Made by a program: the position numbers and the translations under genes. From Emticicia sp. CRIBPO (GTDB lineage Bacteria > Bacteroidota > Bacteroidia > Cytophagales > Spirosomataceae): a DNA stretch of 64,000 nt. The first letter of the stretch is position 1; every line of letters starts with the position of its first letter. Shown here piece by piece: positions 24,944 to 41,816 of this stretch. The notes beneath the pieces are model-generated. The model made no database searches. It was not told where the DNA came from and worked only from the letters and a program-made list of their open reading frames with translations. Where the stretch lies: contig NZ_JAAAKV010000010.1 of NCBI RefSeq assembly GCF_009905725.1, forward strand, positions 62,001-126,000, written 5' to 3'.

Positions 24944-24950
24944 CGTTTTA

Positions 24951-25430: not shown

Positions 25431-25445
25431 AAAATACTTCGTGAT

Positions 25446-26432
25446 TTAGCCGCCGATGGTAGTCATTGATTCTCTGACGACTGTTTTTCTCATTTTTTCA
25501 GCTTCAAAACCGTCTTTTGCCCTGTGCTGAAGGGTTTCGCGGAAGAAATCTTTCAGATCATCATCACTGATACCTTTTCTCATCAGGTCGCGGACATTGG
25601 CACCGCCATCTTCATACAGACAGGTCTTGAATGACCCCGTTGGGGTGATCCTGATGCGGTTACAGGTGCCGCAGAAGGTCCGGCTGAATGCCGCGATGAC
25701 TCCGACGGAGCCTTTGTGTCCCGGAATCTGGTAATTATAGGAGGTTGAATTGGCCTCGTCAGTTGTTTTGTAAAGATCGGGATATTTTGTCCTGATTTTC
25801 TCGATGATATTCTGATAGGTAAGCGGTTTTGATTTTTCATTGCCGAAACCTACGCCGTTGAACGGCATTTCTTCTATAAAACGGATGGAAACAGGTTTGT
25901 CTTTGCCCAGGTCCACCATCGATAAAATATCTTCATCGTTTTTCTGAGCCATCACCACCGTGTTGATTTTAGTGGGAATCTCATGTTCCAGCAAGGCATC
26001 AAGTGTTTTCAGGACATTCGGTAGTTCGTCCCGCCTGGTCATCTGCATAAACCTTTCGCGGTCAAGGGAATCGAGGCTGAGGTTCACCGAAGCAATGCCC
26101 AGGGCTTTTAATTCCGGAACAAACGGAGCCGTCAGCACTCCGTTGGTCGTGAGGTTGATCTTCTGAATGTTTTTATTCTCAGAAATCTTCCATAAAAAAT
26201 CCATGAGGTCTTTTCTGACAAAAGGCTCACCACCGGTGATTCTTACCTTGTTGACCCCCATTTCAGATAAAACGGTGATGAGGCGGATCATTTCTTCGTA
26301 AGACAGCAGGTGGTTTTTAGGAAGAAAATCTATTCCTTCATGTGGCATACAGTAAAAACACCGCAGGTTACACCGGTCTGTAACCGCCAAACGCAAATAG
26401 TTGATTGGCCTGCCGTGATTATCTGTTAACAT
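25446..26432 (-). CDS. moaA: GTP 3',8-cyclase
   Basis: A 328-residue radical-SAM enzyme that starts molybdenum-cofactor synthesis from GTP. Cys21, Cys25 and Cys28 (CNLRCFYC) bind the radical-SAM cluster. A second cluster motif, FCGTCNR ending with a later Cys in FKTCLY, lies in the C-terminal third. The protein ends in Gly-Gly, the conserved tail needed for activity. It is separated by 122 bases from the upstream cysteine desulfurase, so it may have its own promoter, though it belongs to the nitrate region. Confidence 0.97.
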   Translation of the reverse strand: MLTDNHGRPINYLRLAVTDRCNLRCFYCMPHEGIDFLPKNHLLSYEEMIRLITVLSEMGVNKVRITGGEPFVRKDLMDFLWKISENKNIQKINLTTNGVLTAPFVPELKALGIASVNLSLDSLDRERFMQMTRRDELPNVLKTLDALLEHEIPTKINTVVMAQKNDEDILSMVDLGKDKPVSIRFIEEMPFNGVGFGNEKSKPLTYQNIIEKIRTKYPDLYKTTDEANSTSYNYQIPGHKGSVGVIAAFSRTFCGTCNRIRITPTGSFKTCLYEDGGANVRDLMRKGISDDDLKDFFRETLQHRAKDGFEAEKMRKTVVRESMTTIGG

Positions 26433-26554: not shown

Positions 26555-27694
26555 TCAGCCTTTGATTTCAAGAAGGGTTTCTTCAACGTGCTTTTTGAGA
26601 TCTGAGAGGTCCTGTTCTGTGGTGAAACGCCCAAAACTGAATCTCAGTGAACTGTACGCGTCATCATCGCTCAATCCCATGGCTTTCAATACATGAGAGG
26701 GGTCGACTGAAGCCGAGTTACAGGCAGAACCATTGGATATTGCTATTTGGTTCATTTTCATCAAAAGCTCCTCGCCGTCAAATCCTTTAAAACATACATT
26801 TGAAATGCCCGGAATTCTTGACTGTTCAGCTCCATTGATCTTACAAAAGTCAAACCTTTGTAAGAGAAAGTCTTCAAAATCAGATTTAAACCGGCCCATT
26901 TTTTCAGATTCCTGCTCCGTCGCTGCACCAGCCAGCTCACAGGCCATGCCTAAACCAACGATGCCTGTGATGTTTAAAGTGCCCGATCTCCTTGATCTTT
27001 CATGCCCGCCTCCGTCCTGCTGGGCAATCAGCTTAATGTTGTTTCTGACATATAAAACGCCAACGCCTTTCGGACCGTAAATTTTATGTCCCGAGAAACT
27101 CAGTAAATCCGCACCGAGTTCGTTAATATCAGTTTTCAGCTTTCCTATGCCCTGGGTCGCATCGGTGTGAAACAGGACGTCGTTTTGACGGGCAAGCTCT
27201 CCGATTTTCCGGATGTCCTGGATAACTCCGGTTTCATTATTGACCCACATCACCGAAATCATCAGGGTTTCCGGTCTGATGGCCGATTTTAGTTTTTCAA
27301 TATTTAGCAGTCCGTCCGGTTCCACCTCCAGGTAAGTGACTTCAAAGCCCTTTTTCTCCAGGTTTTTAAGCGTATCCAGCACGGCCTTGTGCTCTGTTTT
27401 TAAGGAAATAATATGGTTTTTAGCCCCTGAAGCAGCTTCGGCTACTCCCTTAATGGCCAGATTGATCGATTCTGTGGCCCCGCCCGTAAAAGTGATCTCT
27501 TTCGGAGATGCACCCAGCAGATCAGCCACCTGTGCCCTGGCTTTGGTTACGGCCTCTTCGGCTTTCCATCCGAAAGCATGAAACCTGCTGGAGGAATTCC
27601 CGAAATGCTCTGTAAAATAAGGCAGCATTTCGTTCAGCACCCTTTCGTCAACAGGAGTGGTGGCAGCATAGTCCAGGTATATCGGGTAATTCAT
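26555..27694 (-). CDS. Cysteine desulfurase, NifS/IscS type
   Basis: A 379-residue PLP enzyme that takes sulfur from cysteine for Fe-S clusters, Mo-cofactor or thiolation. Lys204 in SFSGHKIYGPKG holds PLP; the catalytic Cys325 lies in NGSACNSAS. YLDYAATTPVD at the N-terminus is typical. Its start overlaps the stop of the NarL-like regulator by four bases, so it is translationally coupled to the nitrate-sensing pair. A housekeeping role is possible, but the position suggests it supplies sulfur for the iron-sulfur and molybdenum enzymes of nitrate assimilation. Confidence 0.95.
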   Translation of the reverse strand: MNYPIYLDYAATTPVDERVLNEMLPYFTEHFGNSSSRFHAFGWKAEEAVTKARAQVADLLGASPKEITFTGGATESINLAIKGVAEAASGAKNHIISLKTEHKAVLDTLKNLEKKGFEVTYLEVEPDGLLNIEKLKSAIRPETLMISVMWVNNETGVIQDIRKIGELARQNDVLFHTDATQGIGKLKTDINELGADLLSFSGHKIYGPKGVGVLYVRNNIKLIAQQDGGGHERSRRSGTLNITGIVGLGMACELAGAATEQESEKMGRFKSDFEDFLLQRFDFCKINGAEQSRIPGISNVCFKGFDGEELLMKMNQIAISNGSACNSASVDPSHVLKAMGLSDDDAYSSLRFSFGRFTTEQDLSDLKKHVEETLLEIKG

Positions 27695-28347
27695 GACTGG
27701 GACAATAAACCTTCTTTACTTGCTTTCTGGATCAGTTCGGCGGTGTTGCTGAGCCCGGTTTTTTTCAGCATGTTCGCCCGGTGGTTACTCACCGTTCTGA
27801 TGCTGAGTTCAAGCGATTCCGCAATTTCTTTGCTGCTTTGTCCTTCAGCGATGAGTTTCAGTATCTGTATCTCTTTTTTAGAGATCAGCGACTTGATTTT
27901 GCCTCCTGTTTCCTGTCCTAATCCTCCCTTGGATTGCAAGGCTCCCACCAGGATACCGGATATCTGGTGCGGGAAGTATTTCTGTCCGTTATAAATGGTA
28001 TGAATGGCCTTCATGATCTCGTCTTTGTCGCTGTCTTTCAGTAAATAACCATCTACGCCGTTCTGAATGCTTTTTACGACATAGTCTTCATTATTGTGCA
28101 TCGAAAAGACGAGTATCTTAATCTTCGGGTGTGTTTTCGATAGGATTTTTGCTGTTTCTATGCCGTTCAGGTTGGGCATGTTGAGGTCCAGCAGCATCAT
28201 GTCCGGACGCAGCAGTTCTGCCACTTCCAGGGCCGCCTTGCCGTCTACGGCCTCGCCTATGACTTCAATGTCTTCTTCCTCTTCAAACAGGGCTTTTAAG
28301 CCTTTTCTGACGACCTCGTGATCATCCACCAAAACCAATTTAATCAT
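27691..28347 (-). CDS. NarL/LuxR-family response regulator
   Basis: A 218-residue regulator. The receiver domain has the acid pair Asp8-Asp9, phospho-acceptor Asp54 (LLDLNMP) and the conserved lysine in YLLKDSD. The C-terminal LuxR-type helix-turn-helix (about 150-212) includes LKLIAEGQSSKEIAESLELSIRTVSNHRANML. The cognate kinase is 15 bases upstream. Its position downstream of nirBD and the kinase's P-box-like motif suggest it activates nitrate/nitrite genes; repeated AATACTTA elements in that region are possible targets. Confidence 0.94.
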   Translation of the reverse strand: MIKLVLVDDHEVVRKGLKALFEEEEDIEVIGEAVDGKAALEVAELLRPDMMLLDLNMPNLNGIETAKILSKTHPKIKILVFSMHNNEDYVVKSIQNGVDGYLLKDSDKDEIMKAIHTIYNGQKYFPHQISGILVGALQSKGGLGQETGGKIKSLISKKEIQILKLIAEGQSSKEIAESLELSIRTVSNHRANMLKKTGLSNTAELIQKASKEGLLSQS

Positions 28348-28362
28348 GTGATGCTATTTTGA

Positions 28363-29793
28363 TTATTCCGCATAAGCCGAAAGAGGCAATTTAATTAAAA
28401 TTGTGGTTCCTTCTCCTATTCCGGTATAAAGTTTAAACGATCCGTCCAGCAATTGGGTTCTCGTTTTCATGTTTTCAAGGCCGTTATGGATCAGTGATTT
28501 CCTGGTTTTCTTTTGCTTTTCTTTTTTAAAGCCAATGCCATTGTCCCGTATTCCCAGGCTAACGCTTTCTTTGCCGGTTTCAATATCAATAAACATAGAA
28601 GTGGCCTGAGCGTGTTTTATCGTGTTGTTGAGGGCTTCCTGCACAATCCTGTAGAGGTTGATCTCGATATTCTGGGGCATTCTTGCGGCTTTTTGCGGGG
28701 CATTGATTTCAATATGAATGCCCGACGCTTTTTCTGCATGTTCACAAAGGATTTTGAGGGCCGGAGTCAGGCCGAAATCATTCAACACCGGCGGCATCAG
28801 GTTAAATGAAGCCATGCGGGTTGACTCTATCGTTTCGTTGATCAGGAGATGAAGTTCCTCGTAGGCTTTCCTGAATTTGAGGTCGCCTTCCTGTCCTTTG
28901 AGCCGGGCTGCATTCAGTTTTATGCCCGTAAGCATCTGCCCGACGCCGTCGTGGAGCTCTCTTGAAAGTCTTTTTCTTTCTTCTTCCTGGCCTTCGAGCA
29001 ATGCAGAAGACCGCACGAGATCTTCTTTTCTGAGGATCTCATACTTTTCATTCCCGGCTTTTAAAAGCTGCTCCTGGGTTGCTTTCAGTTCGATATTTGT
29101 TTCCGTGAGTTTCTGGTTGATGTCCTGGAGCTCTTTTTCCGAATCGGTTATTTTGAGAATGACGTCGGAGACGTAGTTGATCAGAGGCATAAAAATCATA
29201 AAAGCCTCTACAATCAGGGTCAGCAGGGTCAGAAACAGGATCAGGTATTCAAAAGACCTTACACGGTTTACCCTTTCGCTGGCTTCGAGGTCATACTGGA
29301 AGACGATGTTGTTCATCTGGGTCAGGAACTGCTTCTCATTTTTCAGGATGACATCAATGGCCTGATCGTAATACCGGACCTGGTGCTGATCAAAGTGTCT
29401 TAGGCTCTTTTCCATCGGGAGATAGACTTTGTCAAGTTCTGCAAATTTCTCCCTGATAAGTTTGCTGTTGGTGACATGATACGATTTTTCCAGTGTCAGG
29501 TGCCCGTTTTTTAAGCCTTCATAAGATTGCTTCCAAAGCCTGAACGATGCTCTGAAATCTGCATAATCGATAGAATCCTTTTGGGTGGAGGCTATCAGGG
29601 CCATTTTGGTCAGCTTCTGACTCAGCATTCTTTGTCTTCCCGCTACATTGATTACATGGGAGTCGTCAAGAGAGTCCTTGAGGGTGTATTGCACCGTCAC
29701 ATGCCCAAAAATGGTCAGAATAGCCACCATGGTAAGGGCAATGAGGTAAAAGAACTTCTGCTCCTTTGCTACAGTTTTGTCAATGTTGGCCAT
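28363..29793 (-). CDS. NarX-like sensor histidine kinase with a P-box-like ligand motif
   Basis: The start at 29793 gives 476 residues and a short cytoplasmic lead into the first helix; an in-frame ATG at 29910 would add 39 atypical residues. Helix 1 spans about 14-34 and helix 2 about 183-205, enclosing a helical periplasmic sensor of the PilJ/NarX type. SHVINVAGRQRMLSQK (45-60) resembles the NarX P-box that binds nitrate. After a coiled coil (215-265) comes the HisKA_3 domain with His281 (SRELHDGVGQ) and an ATPase domain (IVQEALNNTIKHA, DNGIGF). It is followed by its NarL-like partner and preceded by nirD, so nitrate or nitrite is the likely signal. Confidence 0.88.
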   Translation of the reverse strand: MANIDKTVAKEQKFFYLIALTMVAILTIFGHVTVQYTLKDSLDDSHVINVAGRQRMLSQKLTKMALIASTQKDSIDYADFRASFRLWKQSYEGLKNGHLTLEKSYHVTNSKLIREKFAELDKVYLPMEKSLRHFDQHQVRYYDQAIDVILKNEKQFLTQMNNIVFQYDLEASERVNRVRSFEYLILFLTLLTLIVEAFMIFMPLINYVSDVILKITDSEKELQDINQKLTETNIELKATQEQLLKAGNEKYEILRKEDLVRSSALLEGQEEERKRLSRELHDGVGQMLTGIKLNAARLKGQEGDLKFRKAYEELHLLINETIESTRMASFNLMPPVLNDFGLTPALKILCEHAEKASGIHIEINAPQKAARMPQNIEINLYRIVQEALNNTIKHAQATSMFIDIETGKESVSLGIRDNGIGFKKEKQKKTRKSLIHNGLENMKTRTQLLDGSFKLYTGIGEGTTILIKLPLSAYAE

Positions 29794-29894
29794 TTTGCTG
29801 GAAAAAGGAAAATGAAAAAGGGTTTTCTGAGATTTCTTTCCGCAGGAACCGGATTCTGGCTGCAATTTATGAAAATATTGAATCAATTCATTTT

Positions 29895-29934
29895 GATATT
29901 GCAGATACACCGTATGCGGAGCCTCTGCAATATC
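29895..29934. promoter_or_regulatory. Hairpin in the nirD-sensor kinase spacer
   Basis: GATATTGCAGA (29895-29905) pairs perfectly with TCTGCAATATC (29924-29934). The 18-base loop holds a second small stem, CCG-TATG-CGG. It lies in the 179-base gap between nirD and the kinase gene and lacks a U-tract, so it may be an mRNA processing or attenuation element, or an operator. Confidence 0.4.
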
Positions 29935-29972: not shown

Positions 29973-30323
29973 TCAAAACTCACTGATCCCTACAAAAACC
30001 TCTCCGTTGCTCACTTTTACCGGGTAAGTCTGTATTTTGTAGTCCTCCCCGCTCAGACATTGGCCGGTTTCGAGGGAGAAGGTCTTTTTATGAAAGGGGC
30101 AGGCTACTTTAGGTTCTGATCCCTGTGAGCCGATCATGCCTCTCGATAAAGCCATCTGTTGCTTATGAGGGCAAAGGTTCTGGGTGGCAAACCACTCTCC
30201 GCGTCTTTTGAAATTATAAATCGCTATCTGTTCACCGTTGATATAGGCACAAACGCCTTCATTTTCAGGAATATCATCTGCCGAACATGCTTTTATCCAT
30301 TTGATGTCTTCTAAAATTTCCAT
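29973..30323 (-). CDS. nirD: Nitrite reductase (NADH) small subunit, Rieske type
   Basis: A 116-residue Rieske-fold protein. Both cluster motifs of a true Rieske [2Fe-2S] centre are present: LCPHKQQ (Cys-x-His) and ACPFHKKTF (Cys-x2-His), unlike some NirD proteins that have lost them. It partners NirB, 22 bases upstream, in reducing nitrite to ammonium. The start and length are normal for the family. Confidence 0.94.
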   Translation of the reverse strand: MEILEDIKWIKACSADDIPENEGVCAYINGEQIAIYNFKRRGEWFATQNLCPHKQQMALSRGMIGSQGSEPKVACPFHKKTFSLETGQCLSGEDYKIQTYPVKVSNGEVFVGISEF

Positions 30324-30345: not shown

Positions 30346-32877
30346 TTAGGCTAATACATTCCAGTCTTTTGCTTTGATCTGGTCACGAAACGGCACCAGT
30401 TCTACGGTCGGGTCTTTTTCTTCCGGAGCGTTGACAAAGTGGCTGAATCTCTTCCTGATTTCAGGGGTTTCCACCGCTTCTTTCCACTCACATTTGTAGT
30501 TGTTGATCAGGACTTGTATTTCCTGTTCCAACTCGTTGCATATTCCCAGGGCATCATCAAGAATGACAGATTTCAGATACGCCAGTCCGCCTTCCATCTT
30601 ATCAAGCCATGGGGCTGTTCTCTGAAGCGGTTCGGCGGTTTTGATGTAGAACATCAGGAACCTGTCGATGAGCTTCAGGCAGGTCTCGCTGTCCACATCG
30701 GTGGCCAGTAGTTCTGCGTGGCGTGGTTTCGAGCCTCCGTTGCCACATACATAAAGGTTCCAGCCTTTTTCTGTGGCGATGATCCCGAAGTCCTTGCTTT
30801 GTGCCTCTGCACATTCACGGATGCAGCCCGAAACGGCAGATTTTAACTTATGAGGAGAACGCAATCCTTTGTACCGGTTTTCGACTTCAATAGCAAAGCT
30901 GACAGCATCCTGTACCCCGAACCTGCACCAGGTAGTGCCCACGCAGCTTTTTACGGTACGCAATGATTTCCCGTAGGCGTGGCCGCTTTCAAAACCGGCG
31001 TCAATGAGTTCTTCCCAGATCTTAGGCAGGTCACTCATGTGGGCTCCAAAGAGGTCTATTCTCTGTCCGCCGGTAATTTTGGTATAAAGGCCGTATTTCT
31101 GGGCCACCTGTCCGATCACGATCAGCTTTTCCGGCGTTATTTCTCCACCAGGGATTCTCGGAACTACCGAGTAAGTTCCTCCACGCTGGATGTTGGCCAG
31201 GTAGCGGTCGTTGGAGTCCTGGGCAGTGGCCCTTCCTTTTTCAAGTACATTCTCGTTCCATAAACTCGCGAGTATAGATGCTACAGCCGGTTTACAGGTT
31301 TCGCAGCCGTCTCCATGGCCCAGTTCATCCAGTACGCCGTCATATGATTTGATGCCTTTGATTTTAACAAGGTCGAATAATTCCTGGCGGGTGTAGCTGA
31401 AATGCTCGCATAGCACATTCCTGACCAGTATGCCCTGTGCTTTCATGGTGCACTGGATCAGGTCTTTCACCATCGGTGTGCAGCCGCCGCATCCGGTACA
31501 GGCTTTGGTGCTTTTTTTGATATCATCCAGGCTGAAAGTCTTGTTTTCTGTGATCTGATGAATGATGTCTCCTTTGGTGACAGCCTCACAAGAGCAGATC
31601 AGGGCTTCATCCGGCAGGGACATGAGACCCGAGCCTGCGTCGGATTCTCCGCCTCTTGAACCCAGGATCAGGTCCTCAGGGTCAGGCGGCAAAACGATAT
31701 TGTTATTAGCCGTTTGCAGCAGCATGTTGTATTGAGAGGCGTCTCCTACAAGAATGCCTCCCAGCAGTCGCTTTTTGTCAAGGCTGATGTTGATTCTCTT
31801 ATAAATGCCCTTGGCCCTGTTTTCAAAAGTGATGGTCTGGCAATCCGGCTCCTGTGCGAAGGCATTGCCGAAACTGGCTACATCCACTCCCAGTAACTTC
31901 AGCTTGGTCGACATGTCAAATCCGGTGAATTTTTTGGCAGGGGCAAGTTCTTCTTTCAGGTTAACAAGGTAAGAAGCCACCACTTCCGCCATTTCATAAC
32001 CGGGAGCTAACAGGCCATAGATGGCTTTCTGGTGCAAGGCACATTCGCCGATCGCAAAAATTTCAGGATCGGAAGTCTGAAGGTGGTCGTTTACTACAAT
32101 TCCACCGCGGATGCCTACTTCAAGTTCCGCCAGTCTGGCCAGTTCATCCCTTGGTTTTATGCCGGCCGAGATAACGAGCATGTCCACCTCGAGTTTTTCA
32201 TCATCGGCAAATGCCATTCCCTGTATCGTGTTTTCACCCAGGATTTCTTTGGTGTTTTTATTACAATGGGTCTTGATGTTCAGTTCAAGGAGCTTGGCCG
32301 CCAGGATGTCGGATCCTGCCTGGTCTATCTGGCGGGGCATCAGTCTCGGGGCAAATTCTATCACATGGGTTTCTTTCAGTCCAAGGTCAAGCAGGGCTTT
32401 GGCCGCCTCGAGGCCTAGCAGCCCACCGCCGATGACCGCTCCTTTGGTCGCTTTTCCGGCGTAGTCTTTCATCATGTCCAGGTCTTCGATGGTACGGTAC
32501 ACAAATACCCCGTCTTTCTCTACACCCGGAATTTCCGGCACAAAAGGAGCGGAGCCTGTAGCCATGACCAGGAAATCATAGGTGAGTTCAAGACCATGAT
32601 GAGAATATACTTTCTTTTGTTCCCTGTCGATGTTCGTAACCGGATCACTCAGGTATAAGGTAATGCCGTTTTCCTGGTACCAGCTGATGGGGGCCAGGGT
32701 CAGTTCCTCAATGGATTTCTCTGCAAAGTAGGCACTCAGGTGGACCCTGTCATATGCTACCCTGGGCTCTTCACCGAAAACCACCAGTTCAAAATCTTTT
32801 GTTTTGGCGAGTAATTTTTCGCAGAATTTATATCCTACCATCCCATTGCCAACGACTACGATCCGATACTTTTTCAT
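30346..32877 (-). CDS. nirB: Assimilatory nitrite reductase (NADH) large subunit
   Basis: An 843-residue cytoplasmic enzyme reducing nitrite to ammonium with six electrons from NAD(P)H. The N-terminal half has FAD and NAD Rossmann motifs (VVVGNGMVGYKFCE, GAVIGGGLLGLEAAKALLDLG). A BFD-like [2Fe-2S] region follows (CSCEAVTKGDI and CTGCGGC), then the siroheme/[4Fe-4S] domain with ligands Cys645, Cys651, Cys685 and Cys689 (C-x5-C and C-x3-C). All cofactor residues are intact. It is the first gene of the minus-strand nitrite operon, divergent from cobA, which makes the siroheme precursor. Expression is probably set by nitrate through the two-component pair downstream. Confidence 0.97.
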   Translation of the reverse strand: MKKYRIVVVGNGMVGYKFCEKLLAKTKDFELVVFGEEPRVAYDRVHLSAYFAEKSIEELTLAPISWYQENGITLYLSDPVTNIDREQKKVYSHHGLELTYDFLVMATGSAPFVPEIPGVEKDGVFVYRTIEDLDMMKDYAGKATKGAVIGGGLLGLEAAKALLDLGLKETHVIEFAPRLMPRQIDQAGSDILAAKLLELNIKTHCNKNTKEILGENTIQGMAFADDEKLEVDMLVISAGIKPRDELARLAELEVGIRGGIVVNDHLQTSDPEIFAIGECALHQKAIYGLLAPGYEMAEVVASYLVNLKEELAPAKKFTGFDMSTKLKLLGVDVASFGNAFAQEPDCQTITFENRAKGIYKRINISLDKKRLLGGILVGDASQYNMLLQTANNNIVLPPDPEDLILGSRGGESDAGSGLMSLPDEALICSCEAVTKGDIIHQITENKTFSLDDIKKSTKACTGCGGCTPMVKDLIQCTMKAQGILVRNVLCEHFSYTRQELFDLVKIKGIKSYDGVLDELGHGDGCETCKPAVASILASLWNENVLEKGRATAQDSNDRYLANIQRGGTYSVVPRIPGGEITPEKLIVIGQVAQKYGLYTKITGGQRIDLFGAHMSDLPKIWEELIDAGFESGHAYGKSLRTVKSCVGTTWCRFGVQDAVSFAIEVENRYKGLRSPHKLKSAVSGCIRECAEAQSKDFGIIATEKGWNLYVCGNGGSKPRHAELLATDVDSETCLKLIDRFLMFYIKTAEPLQRTAPWLDKMEGGLAYLKSVILDDALGICNELEQEIQVLINNYKCEWKEAVETPEIRKRFSHFVNAPEEKDPTVELVPFRDQIKAKDWNVLA

Positions 32878-32959: not shown

Positions 32960-33106
32960 TCAAAAGTAGTACTATTATTGTATATTCCAAAATATTTATC
33001 TAAAATTGAAGAAAAATTGATATAATATTTGCTGAAATTCAATTTTTGTAAAATAATTGTTCAATATGTGTATTTGAAAAGTACAATTTTTGATTTTTAT
33101 ATTTTT

Positions 33107-33122
33107 GAGTACTAATACTTAT
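33107..33122. promoter_or_regulatory. Candidate nitrate-regulon operator, upstream of cobA
   Basis: GAGTACTAATACTTAT differs from the nirB copy at four of 16 positions and keeps GAGTA and AATACTTA. It overlaps the expected cobA transcription start: a -7 box TATTTTTG ends at 33107, with TTTG at 33073-33076 as possible -33. A factor bound here might repress rather than activate. Confidence 0.35.
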
Positions 33123-33128
33123 ATTATA

Positions 33129-33899
33129 ATGAAAATAACTAAATTAACCCTGGTAGGGGCCGGACCCGGAGATGAGGAGCTGATCACTTTGAAAGGGGTA
33201 AGGGCTCTTCAATCTGCCGATGTGGTCTTGTATGATGCACTGGCCAATAAGTCGCTGCTTGATTTTGTGCCTGAAGGGGTGCCTTGTCTGTTTGTGGGGA
33301 AGCGTTCGGGAGAGCACAGTATGAAACAGGAAGAGATCAACGAGTTGATTGTCTCTTCTGCTTTTACTTACGGGCATGTGGTCAGATTGAAGGGCGGTGA
33401 TCCGGTGGTGTTCGGCAGGGCGTTTGAGGAAATGGAATATGCAGAGGCTTTTGGTATCGCCTGCGAGTTGGTTCCCGGAGTGTCAAGTTGTATTGCCGTG
33501 CCGTCTTCTATAGGTATACCCGTGACGAGACGTGGAATCAGCGATAGTTTCTGGGTGATCACGGGTCATACACAGTCGGGTGGTGTTCCGGCGGATATAT
33601 ACCTGGCGGCACAGTCGTCTGCCACGGTGGTGGTGCTGATGGGTCTGGCCAGGTTAAAGGAAATAGCAGAGGTGTTTGCCGGTGCAGGCAAGGATGAGCT
33701 TCCGGTGGCGGTAATTCAGAATGGTACGAAAGAGGATGCGAGGTTTGTGGTAGGTCAGGTGAAGGATATTGCGGAGAAAGTAGGGGAGGTTCAGATTAAA
33801 AGGCCGTCGGTCATTGTTTTTGGTGAAGTGGTCGGAATTCATCCGGAATATATAGCCTTGTATTCTGAAAAATTGTTAAATGAAGAAATATTGGTTTAA
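33129..33899 (+). CDS. cobA: Uroporphyrinogen-III C-methyltransferase
   Basis: The start at 33129 (MKITKLTLVGAGPGD) is chosen over an in-frame ATG at 33090, which lies upstream of the likely -7 box and would add a non-family extension. The 257-residue enzyme methylates uroporphyrinogen III twice with SAM to give precorrin-2, the precursor of siroheme for NirB. Motifs VGAGPGDEELITLKG, VVRLKGGDPVVFGR and VPGVSSCIAVPS are diagnostic. The later oxidation and iron-insertion step (CysG N-terminal or Met8 type) is not encoded in this window. Confidence 0.96.
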   Translation: MKITKLTLVGAGPGDEELITLKGVRALQSADVVLYDALANKSLLDFVPEGVPCLFVGKRSGEHSMKQEEINELIVSSAFTYGHVVRLKGGDPVVFGRAFEEMEYAEAFGIACELVPGVSSCIAVPSSIGIPVTRRGISDSFWVITGHTQSGGVPADIYLAAQSSATVVVLMGLARLKEIAEVFAGAGKDELPVAVIQNGTKEDARFVVGQVKDIAEKVGEVQIKRPSVIVFGEVVGIHPEYIALYSEKLLNEEILV

Positions 33900-34071: not shown

Positions 34072-34102
34072 TTTTGAGTATTTTTATCAATTAATATCTT
34101 TG
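34072..34102 (+). promoter_or_regulatory. Promoter of the nitrate-assimilation plus-strand operon
   Basis: TTTTG at 34072-34076 and TATCTTTG at 34095-34102 are separated by 18 bases, fitting the Bacteroidota -33 / -7 (TAnnTTTG) layout. The narK start codon is 24 bases further on. Confidence 0.6.
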
Positions 34103-34126
34103 ATCAGAATTAAACCAAAGAAAACA

Positions 34127-35431
34127 ATGAATACTAAAAGACCCCTTGAAAAACTGGACATTTTCAGCCTGAGTACTCCCCAGATGAAGACCTTTCACAT
34201 CACCTGGTTCACTTTCTTTATGTGTTTCTTCGGCTGGTTTGGCCTGGCTCCGCTGATGCCTACCATCAGGCAGGATCTGGGACTGACCAAAGAGCAGGTA
34301 GGTAACACCCTTATTGCTGCTGTTTCTGCCACCATCTTTGCCCGTTTGCTGATCGGACGTCTGTGCGACACCTGGGGGCCAAGAAAAACCTACACTGCCC
34401 TGCTGGTATTTTGTTCTATCCCGGTGATGCTGGTGGGTTTATCCAAAACTTATGAGACTTTTTTACTTTTCAGGCTTGCCATCGGGGTGATCGGTGCTTC
34501 TTTTGTCATCACCCAATACCATACTTCAGTGATGTTTGCTCCTGCTATTAAAGGAACAGCCAACGCTGTAGCCGGTGGATGGGGAAACCTGGGTGGAGGC
34601 ATCACCAATATGGCTATGCCCTTTATTTTTGCGGGCATCATTGGCCTGGGATATACCGAAGGGCAAGCCTGGAGATACGCCATGGTGATTCCGGGTGTTC
34701 TTTTGTTGTTCTGTGCCTATCTGTATTATTTTCATACGCAGGACTCGCCGGAAGGCAATTATGAAGACATGGACCGCACAGGTGCTGCCAAAGAAAAGGG
34801 CAGCAACTGGGAAGTGATCAAAGACTGGAGGGTCTGGGCCCTGACCATTGCGTATTCGATCTGTTTCGGGATGGAGATTACTTTTGATAATGTGGCGGCA
34901 CTTCACTTTGTTGACAATTTTGGGATCAGCCAGAAAATGGCAGGGCTGATTGCCGGTATCTTCGGTTTCATGAACATTTTTGCCAGGGCACTCGGAGGCA
35001 TCCTGGCTGATAAAATCGGTCGCAAATGGGGTTTGTCCGGTAAAGGATGGATCCTGGGAGGTTTTATCGTGATCGAAGGCCTGGGGCTTATCTTCTTCGC
35101 CAGCACAGTATCTATTGAGATGGCTATTGTCAGCATGGCTCTTTTTGCTCTCTTCCTTAAAATGGCCAACGGAGCCACTTACTCCCTGACTCCCTTCCTG
35201 AATCCGCGTAATGTTGGTTTTGTGGCCGGGGTGGTCGGTGCAGGCGGAAACATCGGAGGTATGATGATGGGCTTCCTGTTTAAATCTAAAGACATTACTT
35301 ATGCCCAGGCATTTGAATATATCGGTTATGCGGCCATCGTGGCGGCGGTGATCATATTGCTAACCAAATTCGACAAAAAAGAAAAGGCTGTGACAACTCC
35401 TGCTGAGGAAATTCCTGAGTACGCTGCCTGA
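34127..35431 (+). CDS. narK: Nitrate/nitrite transporter, NarK-type MFS
   Basis: The start at 34127 (MNTKRPLEKLD) follows the promoter at proper distance; an in-frame ATG at 34100 overlaps the -7 box and is rejected. The 434-residue protein has 12 predicted helices. The two nitrate-signature motifs of the NNP family are present: GGWGNLGGGITNMAMP near the middle of the first half and GVVGAGGNIGGMMMG in the second half. It brings nitrate into the cytoplasm for the reductase encoded next, 36 bases downstream. Confidence 0.94.
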   Translation: MNTKRPLEKLDIFSLSTPQMKTFHITWFTFFMCFFGWFGLAPLMPTIRQDLGLTKEQVGNTLIAAVSATIFARLLIGRLCDTWGPRKTYTALLVFCSIPVMLVGLSKTYETFLLFRLAIGVIGASFVITQYHTSVMFAPAIKGTANAVAGGWGNLGGGITNMAMPFIFAGIIGLGYTEGQAWRYAMVIPGVLLLFCAYLYYFHTQDSPEGNYEDMDRTGAAKEKGSNWEVIKDWRVWALTIAYSICFGMEITFDNVAALHFVDNFGISQKMAGLIAGIFGFMNIFARALGGILADKIGRKWGLSGKGWILGGFIVIEGLGLIFFASTVSIEMAIVSMALFALFLKMANGATYSLTPFLNPRNVGFVAGVVGAGGNIGGMMMGFLFKSKDITYAQAFEYIGYAAIVAAVIILLTKFDKKEKAVTTPAEEIPEYAA

Positions 35432-35467: not shown

Positions 35468-38400
35468 ATGAACGCCGAAGTCAATAAAAAATATAAGACC
35501 ACTTGTTGCTATTGTGGGGTAGGGTGTGGTATCGAAATCACCCACCAGGGAAACGGCAAAATCCATGTGGAAGGTGACAAGTCGCACCCGGTCAATAAAG
35601 GCATGCTTTGTTCAAAAGGAATGAATTTACATTACACTGTCAACGACCAGTCTGACAGGCTGCTGGTTCCACAGATGCGGATGAACCGGAGTATGCCGCT
35701 GCAGCCAACGACCTGGGACGATGCCCTGGAAAGGACAGCGGCCATTTTCAGGACTTTTATTGCCAAATACGGACCTGAATCTGTCGGAATTTATGTGTCG
35801 GGCCAGTGTCTTACAGAAGAGTATTATCTCTGGAACAAACTGATGAAAGGCTTTATCGGGGCCAATAATATTGACACGAATTCAAGGCTTTGCATGAGCT
35901 CGGCCGTGGTAGGTTATAAAATGTCGCTGGGCGAGGACTCTGTACCAGTGTGTTATGATGACATCGAACTTTCTGACTGTCTGTTGGTAACAGGTGCCAA
36001 CCCGGCCTGGTGTCACCCGATCATCTGGAGACGGGTGGAGGCCCATAAGCAAGCCAATCCGGGCGTAAAGATCATTGTGGTGGATCCGCGTAAAACGCAG
36101 TCAGCTGCACAGGCGGACCTGCACTTGCAGATCAATCCCGGCACAGACGTGACACTGAACCATGCCATAGGAAGGGCTTTGATAGAGCTGAATGCCATTG
36201 ACCATGATTTTATTCAGAACCATACCAATGGTTTTGAGGCCTATAAAAACTCGGTATTCCTGAGGTCTGTGGAAGAAGCCGCAGAAATCTGCGGTATCGC
36301 ATCCGAAGATATCCGGCTGGCTGCTCAATGGATTGCTGAAGCGAAGGGTTTTCTGTCGATGTGGACCATGGGTCTTAACCAGTCGGTGATTGGCGTGAAT
36401 AAAAATCTGTCGCTGATTAACTTGTCGCTCATCACCGGGAAGATCGGCAAACCGGGCAACGGACCGTTTTCGCTTACCGGTCAGCCTAATGCCATGGGTG
36501 GCCGTGAGGTGGGTGGACTGGCGAATATGCTGGCCTCACACCGGGAGTTGTCTAACGCTGTACACCGCGAAGAAATGCAGCAATTCTGGGGCGGCTCGCC
36601 TATTGCTGAAAAGCCGGGACTGACGGCCACAGAAATGTTTGAAGCCCTCGCTGACGGGAGAATGAAAGCGATCTGGATAGTTTGTACTAACCCGTTAGTG
36701 AGTCTGCCTGATGTAAAAATGGCTGAAAAGGCCCTGAAAAATGCGAGACTGGTGGTGGTGCAGGACATTTCTAACCGTGCCGATACCATAAAATATGCCG
36801 ATATTGTGCTTCCTGCCGCTGCATGGGCAGAGAAGGAGGGGACTATGACCAACGCCGAAAGGAGGATATCCTATCTTAATAAGGTAGTGGATGCTCCGGG
36901 AGATACTAAACCTGATGTACAGATTATAACGTCTTTTGCTGCAAAAATGGGTTGGGGAACTCATTTCAATTACAATTCTACTGCAGATATTTATGATGAA
37001 TATGTCCGCACAACTGCCAACACTACCATTGATATTTCAGGTCTGAATTATGATATTCTGAAAAAACAGACCGTTCAATGGCCTTATAAAACCTCGGATG
37101 AAAACGGGAAGGGCAAGAGGCTCTTTGAAGACCGGCAGTTTTATACCCCGGACAAGAGAGCCAGGATTCAGACCGTCGATGATATCAACCAGTCGGAGCC
37201 GGTGAGCAGCGATTTCCCTTTGATATTGCTGACGGGCAGGGTCAGAGACCAGTGGCACACCATGACCAAAACCGGAAGGGTCAATAAACTTAACCAGCAC
37301 CGCGAGCAGCCTTTTATTGAAATCAGCCCGAAAGACGCCGAAAAAAGAGGGATTCTGGAGGGTGATGTGGTGGTGATCAGCGGCAGACGCGGGGAGGTGA
37401 AGGTAAAAGCGACTATTACGGGAGATGTCAAAGCGGGCACCTGCTTTTTGCCAATGCACTGGGGGCGGATCCAGGGCAGTGATTTCGGACGGGCCAACAA
37501 CCTGACGAACAACCTGGTTGACCCCAAGTCAAAAGAGCCTGATTTTAAGTTTTCGGCTGTAGAGATCGTGAAATATGTCAAACCGAAAGAGAAAATCGTC
37601 GTGATCGGGGCAGGTTCTGCGGCTCTGGGCTTTATTTCGACCTATCGCCAGTTGAATGAAACCGATGAGATTGAAGTGTTTTCAAAGGAAATTTATCCTT
37701 TTTATAACCGGGTAATGCTGCCTGATTATGTTTCAGGCACCCAAAACTGGGACCAGCTGGTGAAGCTTAGGGAAGACCAGTTTGAACAACAGAACATCAA
37801 AGTCAATAAAGGCATCAGTATTGAACATATTGACCGGAAAAATAAGGTCGTGGTTGATTCTGAGGGTCAGGAGCATTGTTACGATAAGCTGTTCTTAGGA
37901 ATGGGCAGCAGGGCTTTCATGCCGAGGAATTTCCCTAAAATTCCGGGCATCTTCAACATGAGAAGCCGCCTGGATGCCGACGCTCTGGGGCCTTTCATTG
38001 CGGAGAAAAAACGGGCGGTTATCGTGGGTGGAGGACTTCTGGGCCTGGAAATGGCCGCTTCTTTGCGTGAGCTGGATATTCCGGTGACGGTGGTTCAGAG
38101 GATCGGCCGGTTTATGGACAGGCAGCTGGATACGCTTGGCAGTGCGATCCTTCACGAAGAAATCGTAGCCCGTGGCATTGAAGTGTTTTACAATGATGAA
38201 GTGGAGCAATTCTTCGGAGTCGAAAAAATAGAAGGTATCAGGCTGAAATCCGGTCAGAGTATTTCCTGTAACCTGCTGATTGTGGCGGCCGGAACGCAGC
38301 CTGTCATTGAACTGGCCCAGCAATCTGGGCTGGAATGTAACCGCGGCATTGTGGTCAATGATTATCTGCAAACCTCCGATCCGGATATTTTTGCCTGTGG

Positions 38401-38983
38401 CGAAATAGCCCAGTGGAGAGGTGAGATGTGGGGCATCACAGCCGCTGCAGAACAGCAGGCTGAGGTGGTGGCCAAATATCTTGCTGGAGACCTGGCAGCG
38501 GTTTATAAGGGCAGTTTGTCTATGAACCTCCTTAAAATGCACGGACTTAACCTGTGCTCTCTGGGCATGGTGGAGATTCCGGCCGATGGTCAGGATTATG
38601 AGGAAGTGGTATTTATCGATAAATCGAGACATTATTATAAAAAGTGCGTCATCAAAGACGACAAGCTGGTAGGAGCCATCCTGATCGGAGACAAGTCGGA
38701 ATTCCTGGAGTTCAGAGACCTGATATTTAAAGGTATCGAATTATCTGAAAAAAGACTGCAGCTGCTCAGGTCTGGTAAAAAAGCTGAGCCGGTTATCGGT
38801 AAACTGATCTGCTCGTGCAGCAATGTGGGCGAAGGCAACCTGCTGAATGCGATCGCGGGGGGCTGCAAAGAAGCCAGCAGTTTATACCAGACCACAGGGG
38901 CGGGAACGGGCTGCGGCTCGTGCAGGGTAGAGGTCAGGGCTATTCTTGACAAAGCATTGAGCGAAGCGGTGGTAGCCGCGTAA
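35468..38983 (+). CDS. Assimilatory nitrate reductase fused to FAD/NAD(P)H reductase and BFD [2Fe-2S] domain
   Basis: A 1171-residue cytoplasmic enzyme. Residues 1-700 are a molybdopterin (bis-MGD) nitrate reductase: [4Fe-4S] ligands Cys13, Cys16, Cys20 and Cys48, and probable Mo ligand Cys142 in SRLCMSS. Residues about 705-1090 are an FAD/NAD-linked reductase like the NirB N-terminus or NasB, with IVVIGAGSAALGF near 710 and VIVGGGLLGLEMAAS near 855. Residues about 1112-1165 form a BFD-like [2Fe-2S] domain (LICSCSNVGEGN, GTGCGSCR). It is thus a one-chain NAD(P)H-nitrate reductase, where Bacillus uses separate NasC and NasB. It follows narK and precedes a rubredoxin protein, 21 bases away. Confidence 0.93.
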   Translation: MNAEVNKKYKTTCCYCGVGCGIEITHQGNGKIHVEGDKSHPVNKGMLCSKGMNLHYTVNDQSDRLLVPQMRMNRSMPLQPTTWDDALERTAAIFRTFIAKYGPESVGIYVSGQCLTEEYYLWNKLMKGFIGANNIDTNSRLCMSSAVVGYKMSLGEDSVPVCYDDIELSDCLLVTGANPAWCHPIIWRRVEAHKQANPGVKIIVVDPRKTQSAAQADLHLQINPGTDVTLNHAIGRALIELNAIDHDFIQNHTNGFEAYKNSVFLRSVEEAAEICGIASEDIRLAAQWIAEAKGFLSMWTMGLNQSVIGVNKNLSLINLSLITGKIGKPGNGPFSLTGQPNAMGGREVGGLANMLASHRELSNAVHREEMQQFWGGSPIAEKPGLTATEMFEALADGRMKAIWIVCTNPLVSLPDVKMAEKALKNARLVVVQDISNRADTIKYADIVLPAAAWAEKEGTMTNAERRISYLNKVVDAPGDTKPDVQIITSFAAKMGWGTHFNYNSTADIYDEYVRTTANTTIDISGLNYDILKKQTVQWPYKTSDENGKGKRLFEDRQFYTPDKRARIQTVDDINQSEPVSSDFPLILLTGRVRDQWHTMTKTGRVNKLNQHREQPFIEISPKDAEKRGILEGDVVVISGRRGEVKVKATITGDVKAGTCFLPMHWGRIQGSDFGRANNLTNNLVDPKSKEPDFKFSAVEIVKYVKPKEKIVVIGAGSAALGFISTYRQLNETDEIEVFSKEIYPFYNRVMLPDYVSGTQNWDQLVKLREDQFEQQNIKVNKGISIEHIDRKNKVVVDSEGQEHCYDKLFLGMGSRAFMPRNFPKIPGIFNMRSRLDADALGPFIAEKKRAVIVGGGLLGLEMAASLRELDIPVTVVQRIGRFMDRQLDTLGSAILHEEIVARGIEVFYNDEVEQFFGVEKIEGIRLKSGQSISCNLLIVAAGTQPVIELAQQSGLECNRGIVVNDYLQTSDPDIFACGEIAQWRGEMWGITAAAEQQAEVVAKYLAGDLAAVYKGSLSMNLLKMHGLNLCSLGMVEIPADGQDYEEVVFIDKSRHYYKKCVIKDDKLVGAILIGDKSEFLEFRDLIFKGIELSEKRLQLLRSGKKAEPVIGKLICSCSNVGEGNLLNAIAGGCKEASSLYQTTGAGTGCGSCRVEVRAILDKALSEAVVAA

Positions 38984-39004: not shown

Positions 39005-40468
39005 ATGAATGATTTTTGTACACTCCGTGTCAATTTCAAAGGAGGCATCATTTCTCCGGGCGAATTGCAGCAGATTCTTGAGATCGTCAAAGGATTTCAT
39101 GTCAGGCATATCAAATTCGGCTTAAGGCAGCAGCTGTTTATTCACCTGCCTTACGCCCTGCTCTCCGGGATCGAGAAAAGATTCAAAAAGCATTATGTTG
39201 CTTACCAGATCGACAGTAATTTTTATCCGAACCTCGTAAGTTCTTATGTGGCGGAGGAGGTTTTTCAGAAAGGGAACTGGCTTTCTGAAGGTATTTATAA
39301 GGACATTTTCGACCAGTTTGATTATGAGCCGAAGCTTAAGATCAATATCTCTGATAATGAACAGAGTTTCAGTCCTTTCTTTTCAGGACATATCAATTTC
39401 ATTGCTTCCAGGATCCCGAATTTCTGGCACCTGGCTGTTCGTAAACCCAAGTCCAATACCGTGCTGGATTATGATAAGCTGATATACACCCATGAGGTCG
39501 CCAGGGTTTGTCAGCAGATTGAAGAGAACATCGGAAGTTATGAAGAAGAAAATCAGGATTTCAGTCAGATTTTTTCACATCTGGATGTTTCTATTTCCAA
39601 CGATGTGGAGGAAGGCCTCAGGCTGCCTCATTTTTCATTGCCTTATTATGAAGGATTTAACCGCTACGGAAAGAAAACATGGCTGGGGATTTACCGCCGC
39701 AATGAAAGCTATGCCGTCGATTTTCTGCTTGAAGTCTGTGAATTGTGTCTCAATACCCGTGTCGGTGAAATTTGCCTGACGCCATGGAAGTCGCTCATTA
39801 TCAAAAACATTGAAGAAAATGACCGCTCAAAATGGAGTGCGGTACTGGCCAAATACGACATCAATGTCCGCCACGCGGCCAACGAACTCAACTGGCAGGT
39901 GGAAGATGATTCGGAAGAGGGATTGTCTCTAAAAAACCGGATCGTCAATTATTTTAACCAGAATGACCTCCGGACTTTCGGACTGTGCTTTGGCGTAAAA
40001 ATTATGCCGAGAACAGAAGTTTTTGCCTCGATAATGGTGCAAAAACGCAGTCTGAAGTTGTTTGGGCTTATTCCGCTGATCCCGGTTTATGACCTCTCGT
40101 TTACCGAAGATTTTGACCCTAACGGACGCACCAAAAAATATTTTGCCACAGGCGTGTTAAGCATCAACCTGGAAGAACAGGTCAGGAGAATGGTGCTGAA
40201 ATATAACCACGCTGTAGCTGAGAACAATATCAAAAAAGCTAACCTGAAACCCACTTTAAAAGAGAAACCCGAGCATGTTATCGAAAAGGTACACCAATGC
40301 CCGACCTGTTATACCATTTACGACTCTGCTTTTGGGGACGAACTGAATGACATTCCGGCGGGTGTACCTTTTAAAAAATTACCGGCGGATTACTGCTGCC
40401 CTGTTTGCGAAACGACCAAAGAAAAATTTAAGCCAATAAAAAACCTGACGCATTATGAGAAAATTTAA
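39005..40468 (+). CDS. Siroheme-reductase-like protein lacking cluster ligands, with C-terminal rubredoxin
   Basis: A 487-residue cytoplasmic protein. Residues 1-70 (NFKGGIISPGELQQILEIVK, FGLRQQLFIHLP) and about 235-300 (GEICLTPWKSLIIKNIEE) look like the two ferredoxin-like half-domains of nitrite/sulfite reductases, and the segment between resembles their linking domain. The siroheme/[4Fe-4S] ligand set (C-x5-C then C-x3-C) is absent. Residues 432-480 are a full rubredoxin: Cys432, Cys435, 29 residues, then Cys465 and Cys468 (CPTCYTIYD, CPVCETTKEKF). Its place between the nitrate reductase and the porin suggests an electron carrier or assembly factor. Its 3' end overlaps the porin gene by 14 bases. 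I know no proven function. Confidence 0.85.
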   Translation: MNDFCTLRVNFKGGIISPGELQQILEIVKGFHVRHIKFGLRQQLFIHLPYALLSGIEKRFKKHYVAYQIDSNFYPNLVSSYVAEEVFQKGNWLSEGIYKDIFDQFDYEPKLKINISDNEQSFSPFFSGHINFIASRIPNFWHLAVRKPKSNTVLDYDKLIYTHEVARVCQQIEENIGSYEEENQDFSQIFSHLDVSISNDVEEGLRLPHFSLPYYEGFNRYGKKTWLGIYRRNESYAVDFLLEVCELCLNTRVGEICLTPWKSLIIKNIEENDRSKWSAVLAKYDINVRHAANELNWQVEDDSEEGLSLKNRIVNYFNQNDLRTFGLCFGVKIMPRTEVFASIMVQKRSLKLFGLIPLIPVYDLSFTEDFDPNGRTKKYFATGVLSINLEEQVRRMVLKYNHAVAENNIKKANLKPTLKEKPEHVIEKVHQCPTCYTIYDSAFGDELNDIPAGVPFKKLPADYCCPVCETTKEKFKPIKNLTHYEKI

Positions 40469-41816
40469 CATCATTCTATTGATCATGGCCTTGTCTGTTA
40501 TGAAAGGATGGGCACAGTTCAGCCTGACGGGCCAGCTTCGTACACGAACAGAATACCGCAACGGATGGGGTTCTCCGGTGGCAGAAAGTGCCAAACCGGG
40601 CATATTTACTTCTCAGAGAACCCGCCTCAATTTCGGATACGCAGGATACCGCTTTAAGTTGTACAGCAGCCTGCAGGACGTCAGGGTCTGGGGACAGGAC
40701 CAGTCAACGGTCAACAGGAATTCCAACGAAACCAAAAATGGTCTGATGCTGCATGAGGCCTGGGCTGAAATCAGTTTACTGGATACGGCACAGACCAGGA
40801 AAGGAACGGAACTGAGTCTGAAAATCGGCCGCCAGGAACTGGTCTACGACGATGTGCGGTTCCTCGGCAACCTTGACTGGCTGCAGCAGGCACGTCGCCA
40901 TGACGCCGCATTGCTTAAATATGCCGGGAAAGCATGGACGGTTCATGCCGGGGCTGCTTTTAATCAGAATGGAGAATCTGAGACTTCAACGGTTTATAAC
41001 GGCGTTCCCACCGGAGGAAATACACCCGGAACCAACGGGATAGGGCTGATGTACAAGTCGATGCAGTTTGTGTATGTGAAGAAAAAACTGTCGTTCGGCT
41101 ATGCGTCATTCCTGAGTTTTAAAGATGACTTTAATAAAACTACGAAAGATCAGAACGGGGTGGTGACGAACGTGACGGGAGTTAACAGCCGGATTACCAC
41201 CGGGCTTTATCTGACCGGAACTTCGGGCAAGATTAATTTTACCCTGAGCGGCTATCTTCAGAATGGTAAAAATAAGTCGGGACAAAATCTGAATGCGTAT
41301 TTTTATACGGCTCAGGGTAACTACAAAGCAGGGAAAAAGCTTTCGCTAGGTCTTGGATATGACTATACCTCAGGCAATAAAACGCAGGGAGCCATAACGA
41401 CAGATCACAAATTCGATCCGCTTTACGGCACGCCTCACAAATTCTGGGGAAACATGGATTACTTTTATGTGGCCAAAGGATTCGGACAAACAGGATTATC
41501 TGACTTCTATTTCAAGTCGGTTTACAAGCCTGCAGATAAATGGCTGATTAACTTTGATATCCACCAGTTTAACGCCACTACACCCGTTTTTATGGCGGAA
41601 TCAACTACTCCTCTGAGCAAAAACTTCGGGCAGGAGTATGACCTGGTGGCCAGCTATACTTTGACGAAAATTATCAGTTTTGAAGCAGGATATTCAGTCT
41701 TCAATACTTCAGAAACGCTTTCTTCGCCGTCGGTTAAAAACATAGCCAACGCTCAGAAAGTAGCGACCTGGGGATATCTGACCCTCAATATTAAACCGGA
41801 TTTTATGGCCAAATGA
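40455..41816 (+). CDS. Outer-membrane porin, alginate-export-like barrel, of the nitrate operon
   Basis: A 453-residue beta-barrel protein with a signal peptide (MRKFNIILLIMALSVMKGWAQ). The N-terminal barrel region QLRTRTEYRNGWG, SQRTRLNFGYAGYRF, LKIGRQELVYDDVRFLGN and WLQQARRHDAA matches the alginate-export (AlgE-like) family. Strands alternate to the C-terminus. The gene overlaps the rubredoxin protein by 14 bases, so it belongs to the nitrate operon; the simplest idea is a nitrate or anion channel in the outer membrane, not alginate export. It ends one base from the convergent decarboxylase gene. Confidence 0.82.
   Translation: MRKFNIILLIMALSVMKGWAQFSLTGQLRTRTEYRNGWGSPVAESAKPGIFTSQRTRLNFGYAGYRFKLYSSLQDVRVWGQDQSTVNRNSNETKNGLMLHEAWAEISLLDTAQTRKGTELSLKIGRQELVYDDVRFLGNLDWLQQARRHDAALLKYAGKAWTVHAGAAFNQNGESETSTVYNGVPTGGNTPGTNGIGLMYKSMQFVYVKKKLSFGYASFLSFKDDFNKTTKDQNGVVTNVTGVNSRITTGLYLTGTSGKINFTLSGYLQNGKNKSGQNLNAYFYTAQGNYKAGKKLSLGLGYDYTSGNKTQGAITTDHKFDPLYGTPHKFWGNMDYFYVAKGFGQTGLSDFYFKSVYKPADKWLINFDIHQFNATTPVFMAESTTPLSKNFGQEYDLVASYTLTKIISFEAGYSVFNTSETLSSPSVKNIANAQKVATWGYLTLNIKPDFMAK

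Follow-up and report, generated by a model that had tools for sequence, protein, structure and literature searches.

A rubredoxin-tailed, cluster-less member of the siroheme-reductase fold beside the single-chain nitrate reductase of Bacteroidota

The gene that directly follows the single-chain nitrate reductase gene of Emticicia sp. CRIBPO encodes a conserved and previously unrecognised member of the siroheme-reductase fold, which is cluster-less and ends in a rubredoxin. This protein, for which the label RubSir is coined here, was found in a window of 64,000 nucleotides (contig NZ_JAAAKV010000010.1, positions 62,001 to 126,000), to which all window coordinates below refer. RubSir very likely has a role in nitrate assimilation, probably one that directly serves the nitrate reductase. 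Our tentative preference, with a mechanism that we infer, is for a dedicated, non-catalytic partner subunit of the Bacteroidota single-chain NADH nitrate reductase, in which NasA is fused to a flavin part. This reading is based on the SiR/NirA fold, the loss of cysteines, the intact rubredoxin, the near-constant adjacency with the fusion and the conservation of the former cofactor site.

The preliminary description had proposed a siroheme-reductase scaffold, and both domain searches and structure prediction bear this out. A NIR_SIR_ferr half domain is recognised by Pfam (E 4e-9, 36.5 bits for a cut-off of 24), and an AlphaFold2 (AF2) model computed from 17 aligned sequences (pLDDT 84.2, pTM 0.76) had Mycobacterium tuberculosis NirA (1zj8) as its top Foldseek match (E 7.9e-17). 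In VIA comparisons, for which the stated background is a Z of 7 to 8, the model could be superposed on Escherichia coli SiRHP (4g38) with a Z of 28.1 (375 residues aligned, 3.3 Å, 12% identity), on the same NirA with a Z of 24.6 and on tobacco and spinach NiR with a Z of about 25 (about 395 residues for NirA and the plant enzymes alike). As modelled, the two-half SiR/NirA architecture is complete and its likeness to these enzymes is well above background. It is the fold and the profile alignment that tie RubSir to SiR, since the best 60 of 69 matches in a search of the PDB with the RubSir-family profile were all made via the rubredoxin stretch only. Profile comparisons do not establish descent from the NirA found near the fusion in five genomes, as they gave E 6e-6 with SiR and E 0.0013 with NirA, both being weak values from profiles of different depths. 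The NIR_SIR 4Fe-4S domain (PF01077) is absent from RubSir at E<=1, and PF09655 (Nitr_red_assoc), which we take to be cyanobacterial NarM, gave no match at E<=1 either. A Cep192_D8 match (16.8 bits, cut-off 33.5) was taken as chance, and a phage origin was set aside as no PHROG match was obtained at E<=0.1.

The rubredoxin is a full one, as initially described, and matches PF00301 with 51.7 bits (cut-off 23). Its cysteines, C432, C435, C465 and C468, form two CxxC motifs and are all four present in 106 of 108 homologue rows (the window protein plus 107 loci, some rows being the same genomes reached twice), and solved rubredoxins match this part of RubSir with a VIA Z of about 9. It is also the sole PF00301 match of the whole source genome, which is 97.8% complete. 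The NCBIfam rubredoxin equivalog NF045768, a model of 54 positions, is not reached (44.9 bits vs 90), and the NorV model is matched by residues 394-480 only (32.5 bits vs 711). One homologue (L018, 1085-2473) has a shortened rubredoxin end, in which both CxxC motifs are kept and much of the intervening loop is gone; at E<=0.01, Pfam does not recognise it as a rubredoxin.

The four cluster cysteines had been reported missing from the window protein, and this extends to all 108 homologue rows. When the RubSir family was profile-aligned to E. coli CysI together with 27 hemoproteins from relatives, the first half is clear (E about 1e-6 to 1e-7), whereas the second half is weak (E 0.019 for the whole half, 0.00086 for the half domain) and small shifts are possible. 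By HMM alignment, CysI C434 falls on a gap, C440 on L295, C479 on L327 and C483 on V331. Because the second half is weakly aligned, any nearby cysteine was looked for in the 108 rows. None occurs within residues 284-302, nor at residues 327 and 331, in any row; the only common cysteine within residues 322-336 is C328 (82/108), one residue from the C479 position, and one row has a cysteine at 335. By this alignment, the four canonical [4Fe-4S]/siroheme cysteines are lost in 108/108 rows. The equivalents of R117 (R41) and K217 (K112) are kept in 108/108 and 105/108 rows, respectively, as are N114, D117 and Q120 of the K215/K217 strip (108/108). Among the CysI residues that are presumably anion-binding (R83, R153, K215 and K217), the equivalent of R83 is Lys or Arg in 104/108 rows and that of K215 in 61/108, and the R153 equivalent is Arg in none. 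The description of a scaffold 'without ligands' is thus right for the known SiR ligands, but the body has conserved cysteines of its own: C245 and C248, each present in 106/108 rows (L016 and L017 have just one of the two each), and C257 (95/108). These form a C245-x2-C248-x8-C257 motif in the second half domain (window 39737-39775), with no SiR ligands among them, which is possibly a metal or redox site, or mere core packing.

The conservation of the body speaks against calling it 'decayed', if this is taken to mean that constraint has relaxed. Six strips round the CysI ligand positions (64 residues, their extents hand-picked) average 3.36 bits, compared to 2.55 for the other 344 residues of the body, and just 2/407 circular shifts of the strip pattern equal the observed value. 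The weakest is the R83 strip, with 2.57 bits, and the rubredoxin part averages 2.53 bits, which is below the body strips. The best conserved 9-mers include the loop that stands in for the cluster loop; LPYYEGFNR, TPWKSLIIK and PFFSGHINF, which lie outside the strips, are also among them. Across homologues spanning 27-61% identity (the closest named ones in the best 80 loci, from Lacihabitans, share 60-61%), this argues that the old cofactor site, or a partner surface there, is under constraint, which is not plain decay.

The gene is flanked by the nitrate reductase fusion and the porin, as originally reported, with a gap of 21 nt between the end of the fusion gene and its own start and an overlap of 14 nt between its 3' end and the porin start (Table 1). 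The best PDB sequence match of the fusion's flavin part is a NirB-family NAD(FAD)-dependent dehydrogenase. NirB itself is likely the nitrite reductase of the cluster. A nitrite reductase activity of RubSir was rejected on the sequence evidence, the ligand cysteines being lost and both a NirB over cut-off and a NirD-like gene being present; the NirD-like Rieske gene equally disposes of RubSir as a stand-in for a missing NirD. No RNA leader was detected between 24000 and 46000 by Rfam at gathering score. Promoter- and terminator-like sites number 26 and 15 between 32800 and 42600 (vs 14.8 and 9.9 in shuffles), none of them attributable to the RubSir gene.

Table 1. Features of RubSir and of its gene neighbourhood (window coordinates)
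Feature	Position	Strand	Evidence
RubSir: NirA/CysI-fold body and C-terminal rubredoxin, 487 aa	39005..40468	+	ORF, Pfam, AF2 model, Foldseek, VIA
First half domain, ferredoxin-like (NIR_SIR_ferr), residues 3-59, containing R41-Q42 (= CysI R117-Q118)	39011..39181	+	Pfam, profile alignment
Strip equivalent to CysI K215/K217, residues 108-122	39326..39370	+	Profile alignment
Second half domain, residues 213-300, borders approximate, with non-SiR C245 and C248	39641..39904	+	Model, profile alignment
Loop INVRHAANELNWQV, residues 286-299, replacing the CysI C434-x5-C440 cluster loop	39860..39901	+	Profile alignment, conservation
Strand RTFGLCFGVKI, residues 323-333, replacing CysI C479-x3-C483	39971..40003	+	Profile alignment, conservation
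Rubredoxin domain, residues 430-475	40292..40429	+	Pfam
Nitrate reductase fusion: NasA part (molybdopterin), ending at about 37567, then NADH-flavin part containing Rubredoxin_C and a BFD [2Fe-2S] domain	35468..38983	+	Pfam/NCBIfam, PDB match
Outer-membrane protein (porin), Alginate_exp family	40455..41816	+	Pfam
NarK-type MFS transporter, 310.0 bits, just below NCBIfam cut-off 311.7	34100..35431	+	NCBIfam
Uroporphyrinogen-III C-methyltransferase (SUMT), siroheme synthesis	33090..33899	+	Pfam/NCBIfam
NirB, nitrite reductase large subunit, above NirB cut-off	30346..32877	-	Pfam/NCBIfam
NirD-like Rieske protein	29973..30323	-	
Histidine kinase with PilJ-type sensor domain	28363..29910	-	
LuxR-type response regulator	27691..28347	-	
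MobA-like, MoaC and MoaA-like molybdenum cofactor genes	24359..26432	-	

When bacterial and archaeal genome contigs were scanned, 223 of 258 pattern-matching stretches were found to encode a relative, so RubSir is not a chance ORF. In the best 80 loci, which were fetched, the flavin end of the fusion lies upstream on the same strand in 76 and the NasA part in 75, and the fetched stretch holds the porin in 70, NarK in 65, the siroheme methyltransferase in 57 and NirB in 52. The fusion ORF was measurable in 71 of these loci, 57 of which have a gap of at most 346 nt and the other 14 a gap of 0.9-1.9 kb with one ORF in between. Just four loci lack the fusion. In two of them (L026 and L095), the sequence stops 194 and 467 nt upstream of the matching stretch, and in another (L038, from G286) 635 nt upstream; as the fusion of G286 is on a different contig, where a kinase and a regulator follow it, the RubSir gene has been kept there though unlinked. 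The fourth (L050) is a Runella assembly that is discussed below. A PF09655-family gene lies directly downstream of RubSir in 28/80 loci (e.g. L031, 11479-11949, the one in which it was checked with Pfam), and a MoaA-like gene in two loci (L107 and L111).

Co-occurrence with the fusion, which had been suggested as a check on a role in nitrate assimilation, was assessed in three overlapping genome samples and supports such a role, since 18/18, 14/14 and 22/27 fusions are accompanied by a copy in relatives, class and phylum, respectively. Among the relatives, the fusion is found in 18 of 39 genomes and RubSir in the same 18 (the copy of G015 is diverged, and in G019 and G022 the fusion runs off the contig). 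The class sample (247 genomes) yielded 15 full-length copies, 14 full-length fusions and 14 NirB over cut-off, the last in exactly the fusion-bearing genomes and the extra copy in G280; 13 further genomes, matched at E<=0.001 via rubredoxin or a half domain only, were left out of these counts. The phylum sample (296 genomes) has 23 copies (E<=1e-20) and 27 fusions (at least 1000 residues aligned), with 22 genomes in common. In four genomes of another class (f95, L181-L184), the RubSir gene again adjoins the flavin module.

The exceptions are informative. Five phylum-sample fusions (G476, G329, G297, G417 and G440; L191-L195) come without RubSir, no copy being found at E<=1e-20 in the genome or within the fetched 18.0-19.5 kb. 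Nearby, they have an intact NirA, its four cysteines all present, and the flavodoxin and reductase parts of CysJ on separate genes, which suggests an NADPH-driven NirA; NCBIfam scans covered two of these NirA and one of the CysJ pairs. These 18.0-19.5 kb contain no NirB. The same kind of nitrate reductase is adjoined, then, either by an intact siroheme enzyme or by RubSir with NirBD. Two copies lack the rubredoxin, and neither of their assemblies has an intact fusion or a NirB above its cut-off. The first, in G280, sits at a contig edge. The second, in the Runella metagenome assembly (G284; L050, 9585-10892, and L178), lies between MoeA and XdhC genes, in a genome where the NasA frame breaks off around residue 291, next to an ORF read as transposase-like, and where NirB has no match at E<=1e-50. 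These two cases, the one at a contig edge and the other from a metagenome, suggest a link between the rubredoxin and an intact nitrate module. Finally, nine relatives (G001, G007-G009, G016, G017, G021, G023 and G037) have a two-half sulfite-reductase-like hemoprotein and no RubSir, so the protein is not a general requirement for siroheme loading. Hence, the cofactor chaperone envisaged in the preliminary description is disfavoured in its general form, as a siroheme chaperone or chelatase, and, NirB being present as well, the job of RubSir is apparently not nitrite reduction and not siroheme maturation in general. The evidence fits an electron carrier, a docking subunit and a maturation factor specific to NasA or NirB alike.

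NasA and NirB cannot be separated as partners by presence alone, because in the class sample NirB falls in the same 14 genomes as the fusion. Distance correlations were compared over 47 loci, with the reservation that many loci end within NirB, leaving it truncated, and that linkage is a confounder that may inflate the NasA values. With NarK, SUMT and porin as controls, the RubSir body correlates with the NasA Mo part at 0.69 and with the flavin part at 0.45 (reached by 0/999 permutations in each case), against 0.11 for NirB (170/999). When all other genes are controlled for, the values are 0.65 for NasA Mo, 0.29 for the flavin part, 0.23 for SUMT, 0.07 for NarK, -0.05 for the porin and -0.20 for NirB. 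SUMT is close to NasA in raw correlation (0.91 and 0.94), and controlling for NarK and porin only gives 0.69 for SUMT, 0.84 for NasA, 0.67 for the flavin part and 0.49 for NirB. Within Dyadobacter (26 loci), the body gives 0.22 with NasA Mo, 0.53 with the flavin part and 0.25 with NirB; in the remaining 21 loci, the rubredoxin part gives 0.31, 0.26 and 0.33, respectively. On balance, these sequence distances lean towards NasA rather than NirB as the partner.

A partner subunit might work as follows. The body of RubSir would dock on the NasA fusion, its old cavity holding another small ligand or serving as partner surface, and the rubredoxin would take single electrons from the rubredoxin-reductase-like FAD/[2Fe-2S] module of the fusion and hand them on. 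The molybdenum half would be their most likely recipient, NirB a less likely one. NirB too has the domains of the flavin part (Rubredoxin_C, BFD), so it could also be the electron donor. A point against this reading is that, on paper, FAD, BFD, [4Fe-4S] and Mo already give the fusion a complete electron path. In addition, 5/27 phylum fusions are without a copy, and the rubredoxin is less conserved than the body strips and is shortened in L018.

It is unlikely, although several observations would fit, that RubSir is a maturation factor whose cavity binds a siroheme-type tetrapyrrole or Moco (or a precursor) and which loads NirB or NasA with the rubredoxin as reductant. The cofactor-site strips are highly conserved and retain the K217 and R117 equivalents, the region also contains siroheme and Moco genes, the downstream MoaA-like genes of two loci and the PF09655 gene of 28/80 (Pfam-checked in one) point the same way, as does the rubredoxin-less Runella copy between MoeA and XdhC genes, and the SUMT distances correlate with the body. 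This has to be weighed against the nine relatives that possess a two-half siroheme hemoprotein without RubSir and the five fusions that do without a copy.

We consider it rather improbable that RubSir is a redox enzyme of another kind, with a siroheme or other metal centre devoid of the bridging cluster and fed by the rubredoxin, which would for instance remove NO or hydroxylamine arising in nitrate assimilation. Removal of NO is what flavorubredoxin and NorW do, and the conserved cofactor site, the extra conserved C245/C248 and the adjoining rubredoxin-reductase-like donor would suit such an enzyme. A nas system that includes NO detoxification is reported for Bradyrhizobium (PMC4724949). However, the four canonical cysteines and the R153 equivalent are gone, any other metal site is only putative, and L016 and L017 keep only one of C245/C248 each. 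A variant that we also hold to be improbable merges this with the partner-subunit reading: the constrained, cluster-free cavity would hold a different metal or tetrapyrrole centre, fed through the rubredoxin from the NADH-flavin module, making RubSir an obligate subunit of the nitrate reductase that handles electrons or by-products.

More doubtful still is a partnership with NirB, in which RubSir relays the fusion's electrons to NirB or aids nitrite reduction where NirB has replaced NirA. NirB over cut-off and fusion-linked copies occur in the same 14 class-sample genomes, and the RubSir-less fusions carry NirA and CysJ parts with no NirB within 18.0-19.5 kb. Against this, RubSir adjoins NasA rather than NirB wherever linkage is visible, the overall correlation with NirB distances is 0.11, and three genomes (G018, G019 and G022, though in assemblies of as many as 250-820 contigs) have the gene and the fusion but no NirB-type PF01077 match. 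Lastly, that RubSir is a vestigial passenger, i.e. a dead NirA retained by linkage, is hardly credible, since the loss of catalytic cysteines and the pairing of five fusions with an intact NirA instead are outweighed by a strong, patterned conservation over 27-61% identity and by the retention of the gene away from NasA in G286.

Returning to the partner subunit, which we favour, its components have parallels in known systems. With NirA/CysI (PF03460 and PF01077; PRK09567, TIGR02041), RubSir shares the two-half fold and the R117 and K217 equivalents, and in five genomes an intact NirA is found near the same kind of NasA fusion that RubSir accompanies elsewhere; unlike them, it is without the cluster/siroheme cysteines, the R153 equivalent and a PF01077 match, and has an added rubredoxin. 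Like the rubredoxin-tailed flavorubredoxin NorV, which works with NorW, it ends in a rubredoxin and is adjoined by a rubredoxin-reductase-like NADH-flavin module, but its body is a siroheme-reductase fold and the rubredoxin end alone matches NorV. A degenerate half domain is carried by Bacillus NasB. NasN of Mycobacterium smegmatis, a monomeric assimilatory nitrate reductase described as relying on NADPH, resembles by its description the fusion upstream of RubSir in being one chain with additional domains, and the accessible text on it does not contain the word rubredoxin (PMC7816997). In the NasC-NasB-NasG system of Paracoccus, as far as the available passages tell, the small Rieske protein NasG is thought to connect NasB (NirB) with the nitrate reductase (PMC3475470), whereas here a rubredoxin on a cluster-less reductase fold occurs in addition to a separate NirD-like Rieske protein.

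RubSir had been put forward as a new component of nitrate assimilation, but it is less new than that, the nitrate operons of this family being already on record as containing a 'rubredoxin' gene. In the public annotation of two homologue loci, the protein is a 'rubredoxin' and the fusion a 'nitrate reductase' (WP_232563077.1, WP_245126150.1). In the parts of the literature that could be consulted, a rubredoxin is listed in the nitrate operon of Aquirufa (PMC12528234, PMC11861422) and in a gene table of a third Aquirufa paper (PMC10821818), and a figure legend in a review on nitrate sensors has 'rub, rubredoxin' in gene neighbourhoods, adding that the role in nitrate metabolism of the genes drawn in gray is unclear (PMC8199190). 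Judging from neighbourhood and name, the rubredoxin gene of all these papers is probably the RubSir gene. No description of the reductase-like body was found in the passages of open-access literature that were searched, which is no proof of absence.

A constant companion of many one-chain nitrate reductases of Bacteroidota, named 'rubredoxin' only, is therefore a re-used siroheme-reductase fold without catalytic metal ligands. RubSir offers a direct test case for the recruitment of a dead enzyme, and it is likely to be a missing part when the fusion nitrate reductase is expressed in other hosts. The existence of two designs beside the fusion, NirA with CysJ parts or RubSir with NirBD, makes the role of the partner testable. 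As for regulation, the PilJ-type histidine kinase and LuxR regulator encoded beside nirD (27691-29910) are probably the nitrate sensor of the cluster.
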